Part shown: piece after piece, positions 9,260-19,208 of the stretch | Layout of the letters: the number at the start of each line of letters is the position of its first letter | How positions within the stretch are numbered: the first letter of the stretch is position 1 | Translations under genes and position numbers: made by a program | Assembly: GCF_900660755.1 (NCBI RefSeq) | Contig: NZ_LR215050.1 | Span: 1,116,001-1,180,000, forward strand | Direction: 5' to 3' | DNA from: Acholeplasma hippikon | Lineage (GTDB): Bacteria; Bacillota_I; Bacilli_A; Acholeplasmatales; Acholeplasmataceae | DNA: 64,000 bases | Notes under the pieces: model-generated | What the model was told of the DNA's origin: nothing | What the model saw: the letters and a program-made list of their open reading frames with translations, nothing else | The model's database searches: none

Positions 9260-10654
9260 TTATAATTGGAATCCTTTAGAATATAAAATAAAGTAAACAA
9301 CAAACGCAACTGAGAAGATATAGATTAATGGATGAACTTCTTTACCACGTTTTTGAGCAAGCATTGCTACAGCGTAAGAAATAAATCCAAATGCAATCCC
9401 GTCAGCAACTGAATAAGATAGAACCATACCAATAATTGTTAAGAAACTTGCTAAGGCAACAGCTTTATCTGACCAATCAATTTCAGCAATTTGGCCAGCC
9501 ATTAAGACACCGACTAAAACTAAAGCCATTGAAGTAATCGGGAAGATATTAAAGATTGGCATTAATGGATAAAGTAAAATTGATAATAAGAATAAAATAG
9601 CTACAACAATATTAGAAAAACCTGTTCTAGCACCTGATTCAACACCTGTCGAAGACTCAACAAATGAAGTAATTTCTGGAGTTCCTAAAGATGAAGAAAT
9701 TAAAGTACCAATAGCATCAGCAAATAATGCTTTTTCTAAGTTAGGGATAGAACCATCCTCATTTTGAATACCAGCAACTTTTGTTACACCAACTAATGTA
9801 CCAGCAGTATCGAAGATATCAACGAATACTAAGGCAAATAAAATAACTGGTAAAGTTGTTAATTTAGCAGAAGAAGATAAACCACCTTGTGTATCTTGAA
9901 ATAAAGTTCCAAATCCCTTCACAAAGCCAAAGAAAGATTCTTTAAAACCGGCTAAACCAGCATATCCGTTAGGATCAATATTCACTTCTTGAAGACCTTT
10001 AACACCAGCTAAACTTAAGATAACATAAAGTAATGCTGTTGCAGCAATTGAAATAATAAATGAGAATCTTGAAAGTTTATTTTTTAGGTTATGTAAAACA
10101 ATAATTAAGATAATACCGAATAAAGCAACTAAAACTGAAGGATCAGTTAAATTACCCACTTTTACTAATGTTGCAGGATCAGCAACAATAATTTTTGCAT
10201 TATTTAAACCAACAAATGCAATGAAGAAACCAATACCAGCGCCAATTGCAGCTCGTAATCCAGCAGGGATTGCTTCAATTAATTTTTGGCGTAATGGTGT
10301 GAATGTAATAGCAACGAAGATTACACCACCGATAAATGAAATAGCTAATGCCTCTTGCCATGTATAACCAATTGTCATTACAATTGTGAAAGTGAAGAAG
10401 GCATTAACTCCCATTCCAGGTGCTAAGGCAACTGGATAGTTTGCAACAAAAGCCATAACTAAAGTTGCGATTGCAGCACCAATAGCAGTTGCTAAGAATG
10501 CTCCTCCTAATGGAATACCAGATGCACTGATCATGCTTGGGTTTACAGCTAAGATATAAGACATTGCTAAGAATGTCACAAGTCCACCGATAATTTCAGA
10601 CTTGAAATTCGTTTTGCGTTCTTCAAATTTAAAGAACTTTTTAATTGAGTTCAT
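9260..10654 (-). CDS. pbuG: Guanine/hypoxanthine permease (AzgA/PbuG family)
   Basis: Purine base importer with about 12-14 membrane segments over 464 aa. The start MNSIKKFFKFEERKTNFKSE followed by IIGGLVTFLAMSYILAVNP is characteristic of the PbuG/PbuO branch. Central motifs include PVALAPGMGVNAFF and VFVDIFDTAGTLVGV. A guanine-class riboswitch with terminator lies directly upstream, which supports guanine/hypoxanthine as substrate. GGAGAG precedes the ATG. The gene functionally complements hpt (purine salvage) in the same window. Confidence 0.94.
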   Translation of the reverse strand: MNSIKKFFKFEERKTNFKSEIIGGLVTFLAMSYILAVNPSMISASGIPLGGAFLATAIGAAIATLVMAFVANYPVALAPGMGVNAFFTFTIVMTIGYTWQEALAISFIGGVIFVAITFTPLRQKLIEAIPAGLRAAIGAGIGFFIAFVGLNNAKIIVADPATLVKVGNLTDPSVLVALFGIILIIVLHNLKNKLSRFSFIISIAATALLYVILSLAGVKGLQEVNIDPNGYAGLAGFKESFFGFVKGFGTLFQDTQGGLSSSAKLTTLPVILFALVFVDIFDTAGTLVGVTKVAGIQNEDGSIPNLEKALFADAIGTLISSSLGTPEITSFVESSTGVESGARTGFSNIVVAILFLLSILLYPLMPIFNIFPITSMALVLVGVLMAGQIAEIDWSDKAVALASFLTIIGMVLSYSVADGIAFGFISYAVAMLAQKRGKEVHPLIYIFSVAFVVYFILYSKGFQL

Positions 10655-10740: not shown

Positions 10741-10773
10741 CTATCTACATGACAACTTAAAAAGAAAAAGTTG

Positions 10774-10848
10774 TTCATCGTAGTCACTTCTTTTACGGTG
10801 AAGTGGTAGAAACTCTGGCTACCATATTTAGCCAATTATACGACAAAA
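10774..10848 (-). ncRNA. Purine riboswitch, guanine class
   Basis: Read on the minus strand, the conserved purine-aptamer core is all present. J1/2 is TATAAT; P2 is TGGC/GCCA around ATATGG; J2/3 is GTTTCTACCA; P3 is CACTTC/GAAGTG with the CCGTAAA loop; then GACTACG closes P1. The specificity base is C (GAC-TAC), the equivalent of C74, which selects guanine or hypoxanthine rather than adenine. The downstream hairpin with T tract makes it an OFF switch. It controls the AzgA-type permease. Confidence 0.95.
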
Positions 10849-10866
10849 CTTATCAAACACGGTTAG

Positions 10867-12469: not shown

Positions 12470-13207
12470 ATGAAAATAACTTGGCAAATGGTTTTAGATT
12501 TTTACATCATATTTATTCTTGTTTTACTAATCTTAAAATTTGTTTTACATAACAAGAGAATTCTCTCAATGTTTATGTTCTACTTAGGAATTTTAGTGTT
12601 AACAGCAATAGCAAAATTATTAAATTTAGAAGTATCTGATACATTCTTCAAAATTTTTCCAATGGGATTCTTTATCTTTATGGTTGTTGTTGCAGCACCA
12701 GATATTCGATTAACGCTTGAGTCTTTATGGAAAGAAACTGTAAAGAGCGGTGTTGTTCAAATGAGTAGTGAGAAAACCAAAAATGAAATAATCAAAGCTG
12801 CAATGGCACTTTCTAAAGAGAGTATTGGTGGATTGATTACAATTGAAAAACATAATACACTTGATCAATATTCTCAAAGAGCCATTCAGTTAAACTCAGA
12901 TGTTTCACGTGAATTACTAATTAACATCTTTACACCAAACACACCATTACATGACGGTGCTGTAATTATTCGAGGCGATAAAATTGTGTGTGCGGGAGCT
13001 TACTTTATTCTTTCAAGCAATGAGAACTTTGATAAAACAACTGGATCTCGTCACCGTGCAGCATTGGGTATTTCTGAAATTACAGACTCATTAACAGTTG
13101 TTGTTTCTGAGGAAACAGGAAGTATTAGCATTGCGATTAATGGGGTCATGACAAAAATGAAAGATGAAAATGCTCTAAATGAGTATTTATCATTATTCAT
13201 GAAGTAA
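12470..13207 (+). CDS. cdaA: Diadenylate cyclase CdaA (c-di-AMP synthase)
   Basis: Makes cyclic di-AMP from two ATP at the membrane. Three N-terminal transmembrane segments (about residues 8-85) precede a DAC domain. Its catalytic DGA motif is in LHDGAVII (about 161-168) and its RHR motif in GSRHRAALGISE (about 195-205). 245 aa, slightly shorter than Bacillus CdaA. It leads a nine-gene operon. In Firmicutes cdaA is normally followed by cdaR (ybbR) and glmM; here it is followed instead by a 56-aa membrane protein and a PAS/GGDEF-like protein. Confidence 0.96.
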   Translation: MKITWQMVLDFYIIFILVLLILKFVLHNKRILSMFMFYLGILVLTAIAKLLNLEVSDTFFKIFPMGFFIFMVVVAAPDIRLTLESLWKETVKSGVVQMSSEKTKNEIIKAAMALSKESIGGLITIEKHNTLDQYSQRAIQLNSDVSRELLINIFTPNTPLHDGAVIIRGDKIVCAGAYFILSSNENFDKTTGSRHRAALGISEITDSLTVVVSEETGSISIAINGVMTKMKDENALNEYLSLFMK

Positions 13208-13214
13208 GGAGCAT

Positions 13215-13385
13215 ATGATGAAAGTTATTAAACAAATTCTAAACTTCATTTTTGAACCCGTAAGATTCGTAGGGTCAAGAAACATTTCAAATGTTATTGT
13301 TAAATTCTTTGATAAACATAAATGGTTAATTTATGTATTAGCACTAGTCATTACAACAGCTGTTTTCATCATTTATTACATTTAA
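13215..13385 (+). CDS. Small single-pass membrane protein (56 aa), unknown
   Basis: Starts at ATG 13215 (a second ATG follows directly) with AAGGAG 5 bases upstream and 7 bases after the cdaA stop. The product has a basic amphipathic N-terminal half (KVIKQILNFIFEPVRFVGSR) and one hydrophobic segment near the C-terminus (about residues 37-56) ending in IIYYI. No family is recognised. Position and topology recall the membrane anchor of the CdaA regulator CdaR, without any YbbR domains, so it may be a remnant or a small CdaA partner; that is inference. The good ribosome-binding site and tight spacing favour a real gene. Confidence 0.72.
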   Translation: MMKVIKQILNFIFEPVRFVGSRNISNVIVKFFDKHKWLIYVLALVITTAVFIIYYI

Positions 13386-13416
13386 AAAAATATTAACAGA
13401 CTAAACGGGGGGAACT

Positions 13417-15000
13417 ATGGAAGTATTTGCTCAACATCCAGTATTTGGAGTTATCATCGCGGTCTTCATCATCATCCTTGTTATAACTGAATCCATTCTT
13501 AAAGAGAATTTACTTAAAAATAGATTAACTTTCTCGTTTATTAATTTAACGATATTTGTTGTCTTACTATTCTTTTATGAATCTTTAATTCTAACAAGTG
13601 AAGATTATTTAATTGCATATATTGTGTATTTATATTTAACTTATGGAGCATTCTTATTAGCACTTTATAAAACTTTTAAAAACGCAATCACAAAAGGTTC
13701 ACAATACCAGTTGTTTGTTAAAGGTATTAAAAATACAAAATGGAATGTTTACTATATTGTCGATCAAAAAGAAAGAATTAAAGATATTTCAACTTCTTTA
13801 TTAAGAGAATTAAATCTAGATAAAGAAGAAGTGAGTGGTAAAAAATTTATGTCAGTTTTTTCATCAAAAGTGAGATTCACTAAGATGAATGGGGACGATA
13901 TTAACGACCGAACGTTAGAAAAGTATTTCATTGATTATAAAAAGCGAGTAAGTCCAAATGAAAGTGAAGAAATGGAACTTAACTTCCAAAATTTCAGAGG
14001 CGATACAACGATACTTCATATGAATATGCAACCTTTATTTGTCTTAGGAAAATATAAAGGAAGAATGTGTATCGGTGAAAAACGCACAGAAGAAGAGTTA
14101 CTTGCGGTTGAAAAAGAATTGAAAGCAACAGATAGAGAACTCGAATCTATTCGTCATAAATTTATTGCTACATTAGAATTATCGGATGAGGGACTATTCT
14201 ATATTGATTTAGATGAAAAGACAATTTGGTTAAATGATAGTGTAACTGAACAATTAAAGTTACCTACAAACGAATTAAGTTTAGCAGATTATAGAAAATT
14301 AATAGAGCCACAAGATTTACAAAAGTATCTTCAAATAACGAGTGATTTAACACCGAATAAACAAATTTATGTTGTAAGTTATCGTTTAAATGTTAACGGA
14401 CAACAAATGTGGGTGAAGGAAAAAGGTAAACGTTTATTTGAGGATAAGAAAAATGCAGTCATTATGGGGATTATTAGTCCTGTAAATACGAGTCATTTTA
14501 GAAAATCAGGCATTGAAGTTCTAGACACAATTAAAGACGAAAATCATTTGTTACCAGATTTGAAATCATTAATTAAAAATGGTAGACCGTTCCAACTTGC
14601 AATCTTGAAATTGTCAAATATCCCACAAATTAATGAAATGCATGGCCGTGAAGTTGGTAACATGCTCATGGCTCAATATATTGCAAAAGTTAAACAATCA
14701 TTTGTAACAGAAAGCTCTGATCTTTATAGATTATCAGGTCTAGAGTTTGCTTTAACAATTACAGATGCTAGAAAAATGGCATCACTATATAACGGAATCC
14801 GCGCAGAAGATAATCACTTAAATATGGTGATGGAATATGGTGCAATAACAGCTGAGGTTGAAACCTTCATTGGTGTTGCACAGATGTATGATGATGCAGT
14901 CAATGCACAAGATTTATATCAAAATGCAATGCGTGCATTAAAAACAGCCCAACTACCACAATTTAAAGGTCAAGGTTGTTACTATAAGGATATAAAATAA
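13417..15000 (+). CDS. Membrane PAS-PAS-degenerate GGDEF protein
   Basis: A 527-aa protein with three predicted membrane segments (about 8-28, 38-60, 65-88), a PAS-like domain (about 105-225), a charged coiled coil (about 228-252), a second PAS-like domain (about 253-355) and a C-terminal GGDEF-fold domain (about 375-527). The GGDEF signature reads SGLEF, and the metal-binding Asp of the first strand is replaced (LKLSN), so diguanylate cyclase activity is unlikely. The order membrane-PAS-degenerate GGDEF matches the front of the c-di-AMP phosphodiesterase GdpP, but the DHH-DHHA1 hydrolase domain is absent. It may be a sensor or regulator for the adjacent CdaA (inference). The stop overlaps the start of fthC by one base. 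Confidence 0.8.
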   Translation: MEVFAQHPVFGVIIAVFIIILVITESILKENLLKNRLTFSFINLTIFVVLLFFYESLILTSEDYLIAYIVYLYLTYGAFLLALYKTFKNAITKGSQYQLFVKGIKNTKWNVYYIVDQKERIKDISTSLLRELNLDKEEVSGKKFMSVFSSKVRFTKMNGDDINDRTLEKYFIDYKKRVSPNESEEMELNFQNFRGDTTILHMNMQPLFVLGKYKGRMCIGEKRTEEELLAVEKELKATDRELESIRHKFIATLELSDEGLFYIDLDEKTIWLNDSVTEQLKLPTNELSLADYRKLIEPQDLQKYLQITSDLTPNKQIYVVSYRLNVNGQQMWVKEKGKRLFEDKKNAVIMGIISPVNTSHFRKSGIEVLDTIKDENHLLPDLKSLIKNGRPFQLAILKLSNIPQINEMHGREVGNMLMAQYIAKVKQSFVTESSDLYRLSGLEFALTITDARKMASLYNGIRAEDNHLNMVMEYGAITAEVETFIGVAQMYDDAVNAQDLYQNAMRALKTAQLPQFKGQGCYYKDIK

Positions 15001-15524
15001 TGACTTCAAAAAGCGATTTAAGAAAGATTATTATCAATAAAAGAAACAGCAACTTAGATGAACAAAACGATGCAGCTAAACTGCATATTTTGGCTGAATT
15101 GGATAAAAATCCAACGTTTATAGAAGCACGATTTATTGGTTTATATTATCCTCTTTCAGTAGAAATCGACTTAAGAGAAATTATTGAAAAATACCCAAAT
15201 AAAAAATATGCATTTCCTAAAATTGTAGACGATAAAATGATTTATATTGAGTATACAAAAGATACAGTTTTTGAATGCAGTAATTTTAATGTATATGAAC
15301 CAGTAGGTAGAGTAGATGTTTCAAATCAATTAGACTTAGTGATTGTTCCAGCATTAGCAATGAATAAAAGAAATTTTAGATTAGGATTTGGAAAAGGATA
15401 TTTTGATAAATTCTTCAAAAAATGCCCGAATCCTTATAAAATTGGTATAATTTATAAAGATGAAGAAATTGACTTTAAGGAAGAAGACCACGATGTAGCA
15501 TTAGATTGTTATTTGATGGGTTAA
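15000..15524 (+). CDS. fthC: 5-formyltetrahydrofolate cyclo-ligase
   Basis: Converts 5-formyl-THF to 5,10-methenyl-THF with ATP (YqgN/MTHFS family). The signature LGFGKGYFDKFF (about 137-148) is intact, with FIGLYYPLSVEIDL upstream. 174 aa, on the short side but complete. Start ATG overlaps the previous stop (TAATG), implying translational coupling within the cdaA operon. Confidence 0.9.
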   Translation: MTSKSDLRKIIINKRNSNLDEQNDAAKLHILAELDKNPTFIEARFIGLYYPLSVEIDLREIIEKYPNKKYAFPKIVDDKMIYIEYTKDTVFECSNFNVYEPVGRVDVSNQLDLVIVPALAMNKRNFRLGFGKGYFDKFFKKCPNPYKIGIIYKDEEIDFKEEDHDVALDCYLMG

Positions 15525-17938: not shown

Positions 17939-17974
17939 TGAAGTAGTCAATACTTTGTAGACATAAAAAATTAT
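17939..17974 (+). repeat. Left terminal inverted repeat of the IS
   Basis: Roughly 26 of 36 positions match the right repeat; the orfB stop codon lies inside it. Confidence 0.8.
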
Positions 17975-18807
17975 TTAAACCTCAATTCAGTTCTATACTG
18001 TATTGGGGTTTTATATCTTAATGAGTATGCTAATCTTTCATTATTGAAATACTCAACATACTTTTTTATAATCTCTAATGGATTATCACTGTGATAAAAA
18101 TTATAGTCATATTTAAGTTCATCTTTGATCCAACCATTTAGGGATTCAATAATTGGATTATCTGTAGGGGTTGCTATTCTCGACATTGATCTTTTTATGG
18201 TATGATTAAATAAAGAGTTGAATCCTCTTGAGGTATATATTGCTCCTTGATCAGAATGCACAATCGTGTCAAGGTTCATATATCCTCTTTTTTGTTTTTG
18301 TCTTAAAAAGTTTTTTGCAGCTGTATAGTGATTTGAAGGACTTGCACCATAATTACTGCGTCTAATATCGTAAGATATAATCGTATGATCAAATAAATCA
18401 ATATATAGATTCCAGTCATATTTACCACTTTTATGCGTTAGTATTGTTGTATCTGTACATACTTTCTCAAATGGACGACTTGTATGAAAATCATGTAGTA
18501 AATTAGGATATATCTCGTGTTCTTTTCCGGACTTGTGGCGCTTCATTCTTGCTTTTGAACGAATACCTAATAATTTACAGCACTGATGGCATAAAAGGTC
18601 TGAAAAGTATCGTTTTGTTTTATTCCTAATATGCTCCGCTCTATGTTTATAACCCCATACTTTATGCTTCTTATAACTTTCTTTGATTTCTTCGATTAAC
18701 CATAATCTGTTAATTTGGTACCTGTTTAAGGTACCTTTTCTTTTTATCCATTTATAATATCCTGATCGTGATACACCCATATATATACATAAATTTTCAA
18801 TATTCAT
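17971..18807 (-). CDS. IS3-family transposase OrfB (integrase domain)
   Basis: Carries the DDE catalytic domain that cuts and joins the IS ends. The product (278 aa from ATG 18807) begins in the typical HTH_21 region (MGVSRSGYYKW). It has the three acidic positions in CTDTTILTHKSG, VHSDQGAIYTS and PIIESLNGWIKDE, and it ends with the LAYSLRYKTPIQYR tail. The frame is open upstream of this ATG to the A7 slippery run and encodes KVKKKIQSEYEIIALLSKE, typical of IS3 OrfB, so the active product is most likely an OrfAB fusion made by -1 frameshifting. Confidence 0.93.
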   Translation of the reverse strand: MNIENLCIYMGVSRSGYYKWIKRKGTLNRYQINRLWLIEEIKESYKKHKVWGYKHRAEHIRNKTKRYFSDLLCHQCCKLLGIRSKARMKRHKSGKEHEIYPNLLHDFHTSRPFEKVCTDTTILTHKSGKYDWNLYIDLFDHTIISYDIRRSNYGASPSNHYTAAKNFLRQKQKRGYMNLDTIVHSDQGAIYTSRGFNSLFNHTIKRSMSRIATPTDNPIIESLNGWIKDELKYDYNFYHSDNPLEIIKKYVEYFNNERLAYSLRYKTPIQYRTELRFK

Positions 18808-18824
18808 TTCTTTACTTAATAAAG

Positions 18825-19208
18825 CTATGATTTCGTATTCGCTTTGGATTTTCTTCTTAACTTTATTTCCATCACCTCCTCGGTTGTGTATCCTTTTTTT
18901 AAACGTTCATTCTCTATTCTTAATTTCATGTTTTCATATTGGAGTTGTTCTAATTCTGTTAGGTTTTTCTTTAGCATAAATTTAGAAAGTGGATTCCCTG
19001 GCTTTCTCTTATTCTCTAGTGCATCTATGCCACCTTCATTATATTTTCTGACCCATGTTGAAATCATTCCGTTAGATATATTATTCTTTCTTCCTAATTC
19101 CAGTGCACTACATTCGCCCGATAGAACCAGCTTAACATATTCATACTTAGCTTCTTTACTCCAGTATCGTGATTCAGTCTTATTCTTAACACCTTTTGGT
19201 CTTCCCAT
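18825..19208 (-). CDS. IS3-family transposase OrfA (helix-turn-helix)
   Basis: A 127-aa DNA-binding subunit: an N-terminal HTH (about 18-60, ALELGRKNNISNGMISTWVRKY) and a leucine-zipper-like C-terminus (LTELEQLQYENMKLRIENERL) typical of IS3 OrfA. AAAGGAGG precedes the ATG. On the minus strand, the codons TTA AAA AAA GGA at 18902-18891 form a slippery run. A -1 slip enters the orfB frame, which stays open from there. Confidence 0.9.
   Translation of the reverse strand: MGRPKGVKNKTESRYWSKEAKYEYVKLVLSGECSALELGRKNNISNGMISTWVRKYNEGGIDALENKRKPGNPLSKFMLKKNLTELEQLQYENMKLRIENERLKKGYTTEEVMEIKLRRKSKANTKS

Follow-up and report, generated by a model that had tools for sequence, protein, structure and literature searches.

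The cdaA locus and its products

The window analysed here is a stretch of 64,000 nucleotides from the 1.47-Mb genome of Acholeplasma hippikon, the closest named relatives of which belong to Acholeplasma and include A. laidlawii, A. oculi and A. granularum. We were interested in a diadenylate cyclase (DAC) gene in this window and the genes that follow it:

12470-13207, + strand: cdaA, membrane-linked diadenylate cyclase of 245 aa (TIGR00159, PF02457)
13215-13385, + strand: single-pass membrane protein of 56 aa, candidate CdaR stub (position, dN/dS, likeness to the CdaR N-terminus)
13417-15000, + strand: sensor of 527 aa with three transmembrane (TM) helices, two PAS domains and a dead GGDEF domain (Pfam, alignment of 28 relatives, AlphaFold model)
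15000-15524, + strand: fthC, 5-formyltetrahydrofolate cyclo-ligase (TIGR02727 above its cut-off)

A preliminary description of this DNA had proposed cdaA followed by genes for a 56-aa and a 527-aa protein, and all three ORFs were indeed recovered in these places on the plus strand. Clear Shine-Dalgarno-like sequences precede the 56-aa ORF (aaggag) and the sensor ORF (gggggg). The sensor gene and fthC share one base where the former ends and the latter starts, indicating that the operon probably continues past the sensor, with fthC as the conserved next gene and probably on the same transcript. Searches with the cdaA product led to 195.9 bits for the NCBIfam CdaA model TIGR00159 (cut-off 188.8) and 136 bits for the Pfam DAC domain PF02457 (E 6e-40). 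Its TM helices were estimated at residues 8-26, 31-49 and 58-76, followed by the DAC domain, and both catalytic motifs, DGA (as DGAVII) and RHR (as RHRAAL), are present. It is encoded by the single DAC gene of the source genome. Elsewhere in the window, a purine riboswitch (RF00167, 70.9 bits; 10761-10863, minus strand) lies upstream of the gene for a 464-aa membrane transporter (9260-10654), and an IS3-type transposase-like ORF pair (278 and 127 aa; 17971-19208, minus strand) is found shortly downstream of the operon.

As in the cdaA-cdaR-glmM operon of Firmicutes, a gene for a membrane partner stands immediately behind cdaA. The locus described here differs in that its taxonomic order is without YbbR proteins, the partner has about 49-71 aa, the next gene encodes a PAS-PAS-pseudo-GGDEF protein, and the loci inspected have no glmM after these genes. 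With CdaM of Mycoplasma pneumoniae the locus has in common that c-di-AMP is made in wall-less bacteria; CdaM, however, has one TM helix and represents a DAC class of its own (PMC5508000), whereas the enzyme described here, with its three TM helices, belongs to the CdaA type and its gene is linked to two further genes for membrane proteins. The open-access papers searched included none dedicated to c-di-AMP regulation in Acholeplasma, which is not proof of absence, and none on Acholeplasma PAS/GGDEF proteins or on a phytoplasma diadenylate cyclase. A cdaA operon that also encodes such a 56-aa protein and such a sensor is apparently undescribed.

Domains and descent of the 527-aa sensor

Domain profiles of the 527-aa protein agreed with what had been read from its letters, namely membrane segments, two PAS domains, a dead GGDEF domain and no DHH-DHHA1 hydrolase. 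Hydrophobic helices were located at residues 9-27, 41-59 and 65-83, and Pfam assigned PAS domains at about 113-209 and 252-353 and a GGDEF domain at 378-512 (PF00990, 37.4 bits; cut-off 23.8), with no DHH or DHHA1 match at E <= 10. The GGDEF signature reads SGLEF, K398 and L442 occupy the positions of the first and the second metal-binding Asp, and the RxxD inhibitory site (I-site) is absent, with TESS at 431-434. Catalytic residues are lost in all forms of the sensor, the Asp being gone and the motifs being of the SGLEF/TGIQF type, and in no sensor were the GG[DE]EF signature and the metal ligands of an active diguanylate cyclase found. Residues N406, G414, N415, R438, G441 and F444 are invariant across 28 relatives.

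The preliminary description had taken this protein for the front half of the c-di-AMP phosphodiesterase GdpP (YybT), with the hydrolase lost and a new role as regulator of CdaA. Indeed, membrane helices, PAS and a degenerate GGDEF domain come in the same general order in both proteins. However, a complete GdpP of 819 aa, with PAS_GdpP, GGDEF_GdpP, DHH and DHHA1 domains and a fused ribosomal protein L9 (PRK14538), is encoded elsewhere in the source genome; it matches PF21370 PAS_GdpP (6e-18) and PF24898 GGDEF_GdpP (7e-25), neither of which was matched by the 527-aa sensor in Pfam searches. Comparison of the GGDEF part with ordinary diguanylate cyclases from the same genomes as the sensors and from relatives by hhalign led to a probability of 99.6% (E 1.7e-24), against 1.7% (E 0.03) for GdpP. 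An AlphaFold model of the sensor (pLDDT 81) gave canonical GGDEF domains as best VIA-align matches (4urg_B: Z 18.6, rmsd 2.4, 148 residues). In addition, the sensor has a second PAS domain and a third TM helix and no DHH-DHHA1, and intact GdpP was detected in 65 of 67 genomes tested, including every sensor-bearing family tested. Descent from GdpP is rejected on the GdpP-specific Pfam models, the hhalign result and the intact GdpP in the same genome, and a split GdpP with a separately encoded DHH half is rejected because GdpP is whole. We therefore consider the reading as a converted GdpP front half very improbable. Judged from these sequence comparisons, the sensor resembles GdpP in layout and not by descent, and the 527-aa protein is a membrane sensor apparently derived from a dead diguanylate cyclase. 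With the PAS-GGDEF diguanylate cyclases it shares the GGDEF fold and the sequence lineage; the sensor family differs from them by the lack of the catalytic Asp/Glu, of the metal sites and of the I-site, and by a gene tied to the neighbourhood of cdaA.

The GdpP-L9 fusion itself (L002:568-3027; G000:C1:944118-946571) carries a complete L9 at the C-terminus of GdpP. Such fusions occur in most families of the clade, and gdpP and rplI are adjacent but separate in f7 (G173), f12, f15 and others. Another locus of the survey (L003:518-2400) encodes tandem NrnA-like DHH-DHHA1 proteins of 313 and 314 aa, the genes of which overlap by a few bases.

A dead cyclase domain might also be kept as a putative receptor for another nucleotide (GTP, c-di-GMP or ppGpp), which would couple that nucleotide to c-di-AMP synthesis. 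In line with this, the base-contacting N406 is invariant in a site that has lost both metal ligands, the five further residues named above are likewise invariant in 28 relatives, catalytic residues are lost in all sensors, and intact GGDEF proteins (RYGGDEF) are encoded in the same genome. The missing RxxD site and the second base contact, which is Asn and not Asp, argue against such a receptor, and we regard it as unlikely.

Gene neighbourhoods of sensor and CdaR

Conservation of the gene pair beside cdaA, as expected by the preliminary description, was found in a survey of neighbourhoods. The sensor is present in 55 of 88 genomes of the family, one of which (G029) has a broken sensor frame, and in 55/55 it lies behind cdaA, with contig and strand in common. 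Most of the 33 family genomes without a sensor belong to genus g11, which we identify from genome size and gene content as phytoplasma-like small genomes; these keep cdaA with other genes behind it. As phytoplasmas keep cdaA without either partner, neither the 56-aa protein nor the sensor is needed for CdaA as such. In four phytoplasma-like loci (L100, L101, L102, L103) the gene next to the partnerless cdaA is DegV-like or dnaX-like.

Five families of the order (160 genomes) have full-length sensors. The order cdaA - small gene - sensor is retained in f2 and f4. In f3, the sensor is on another contig than cdaA, together with fthC, and in f5 as in f3 the sensor stands apart from cdaA with fthC still the next gene. 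The next gene after the sensor is fthC in 35/37 family loci, and the linkage of sensor and fthC is about as tight as that of sensor and cdaA, also where cdaA is not adjacent. Other orders have a shorter form of the sensor with about 385 aa and one PAS domain. This form lies directly behind cdaA in L160, and both f16 and f24 have a gene for a 780-aa flavin-type oxidoreductase between cdaA and the short sensor. In f7, likewise outside the order but with full-length sensors, mgsA was found between cdaA and the sensor (L146). The Pfam assignment of this flavin/NAD-binding protein (L147:1418-3751, with equivalents in f16 and f24) is weak, and its position between cdaA and the sensor is constant. 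Monophyly of the sensors is supported at only 0.75, and relatives of the pair are spread over several families of the class. In two species pairs, dN/dS of 0.017-0.108 indicated purifying selection on all three genes, with values of 0.02-0.11 for the small and the sensor genes that are similar to cdaA. The locus is a genuine and old variant of the cdaA operon, kept under selection.

The short sensor is also present in four genomes of f23 (G219, G288, G435 and G462, with 97, 92, 82 and 84% completeness; L161), in which no DAC gene was detectable. Either these genomes have a diverged cyclase or the sensor operates without c-di-AMP; as it is kept with no detectable DAC, the sensor must act without CdaA at least in f23. 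GdpP was confirmed in G219 and G288. Therefore, the link between sensor and CdaA put forward in the preliminary description is still plausible, but it is weaker than had been claimed, with the f3 sensor off the cdaA contig and the f23 sensor lacking a DAC.

These findings would also suit a different reading, in which the 56-aa protein is the only partner of CdaA and the sensor belongs to another pathway, merely sharing a conserved housekeeping operon (cdaA, fthC, ispD, yutD and a nifU-like gene). The sensors of f3 and f5 are detached from cdaA yet still followed by fthC, f23 keeps a sensor without any DAC, and the small gene of f3 has stayed beside cdaA. On the other hand, cdaA and the sensor remain neighbours in f1, f2, f4, f7, f16 and f24 despite exchange of the intervening genes. 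A CdaA partnership of the 56-aa protein only appears possible, at a tentative level of confidence.

The expectation that CdaR is missing beside cdaA held well beyond the locus. No CdaR was found elsewhere in the source genome, and YbbR (PF07949) is absent from 160/160 genomes of the order. Among 395 genomes sampled across the class, YbbR was detected in 117, the sensor in 99 and both in 0; the 99 were counted by E-value and include a sensor-like hit in G199 (L163) that keeps SGDEF, groups with ordinary cyclases and is not a true member of the family. The exclusion follows deep clades and so reflects few independent events. In f2, f5 and f7, several genomes with a sensor encode a PBP transpeptidase and are thus walled, and they too have no YbbR. 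Loss of the wall alone as the cause of CdaR loss is ruled out by these members. As walled relatives also lack CdaR, it seems that in this clade CdaR was lost before the cell wall.

The 56-aa protein as a candidate CdaR stub

In each of the 37 family loci that were inspected closely, a small ORF of about 49-63 aa was found directly behind cdaA, and in f1-f4 nearly all inspected loci holding cdaA have the small gene about 0-15 bp behind it. In f3 it stays 7-10 bp behind cdaA with the sensor elsewhere. Because it remains in place even if the sensor is located elsewhere, the 56-aa protein, on which the preliminary description says little, is a tighter partner of cdaA than the sensor. Its gene, with dN/dS of 0.05-0.11, occupies the slot taken by CdaR, which was directly behind cdaA in 40 CdaR loci examined from eight families. 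The protein has no Pfam match and no YbbR domain; alignment of the small proteins showed one invariant proline and one TM helix, and modelling of the 56-aa protein led to three helices at residues 2-19, 22-34 and 36-55.

A profile of 76 small proteins was run against 4105 ORFs, and the best three of 3017 hits to non-family ORFs were CdaR (E 0.0023, 0.015 and 0.06), aligned over about 50 residues with proline and TM helix in register. The median score of five f15 CdaR N-termini (15.6) exceeded those of all 1052 membrane windows, and the CdaR family medians lay above the membrane-window background (p 3e-5) as well as above 146 N-terminal basic-TM windows (p 3e-4). For three f15 CdaR sequences, comparison with shuffles of preserved composition led to p 0.002. 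In the reciprocal search with a CdaR N-terminus profile, 18 of the top 50 among 3472 hits were small proteins. By strict profile comparison the likeness is weak, with an hhalign probability of 22% (E 1e-3) for the small family against the CdaR anchor, and with 1.7% and 9.4% in earlier comparisons, in which the CdaR segment had been badly cut and the families pooled, respectively. The signal comes mainly from f15, being strong for f15 CdaR only, and an unrelated P-type-ATPase-like window with a convergent amphipathic-TM segment scored 12.1. From this weak but specific and reciprocal likeness, the 56-aa protein may be a CdaR stub, and its homology to the N-terminal membrane anchor of CdaR is likely, though short of proof.

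CdaR and GlmM bind and regulate CdaA, and the contact of CdaA with CdaR has been placed in the transmembrane region of CdaA by Listeria work, as cited in PMC8573169, where the mode of control by CdaR is described as unclear. With the contact in this region, a stub could keep it. We infer regulation of CdaA by the 56-aa protein or the sensor, and in the variant operon the slot of CdaR may be taken by a CdaR stub together with a co-expressed pseudo-cyclase sensor that signals to CdaA, a model to which we give a little less than an even chance. The 56-aa protein would correspond to CdaR without its extracytoplasmic YbbR domains, with the N-terminal amphipathic and transmembrane part kept, and it would pack against the TM helices of CdaA and tune the assembly of CdaA into the active oligomer. 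With less certainty, the PAS domains of the sensor might bind a ligand or read the redox state, and the PAS-GGDEF stalk might relay the signal at the membrane, either to CdaA or to the pair of CdaA and stub. Breakdown of c-di-AMP would be done separately by the intact GdpP.

The 56-aa gene is probably the most interesting gene of the locus. That its product is a natural minimal CdaR, from which the pseudo-cyclase sensor took over the sensing, is conceivable and is proposed with some reserve; control of c-di-AMP synthesis in the clade would then lie with a PAS pseudo-enzyme in the membrane and not with an extracellular domain. If true, a CdaR that evolution has trimmed to about 56 residues would reveal the part of CdaR that matters, and structural work would gain in the stub a partner that is small and easy to express. 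The locus supplies concrete candidates for the control of c-di-AMP in Acholeplasma.
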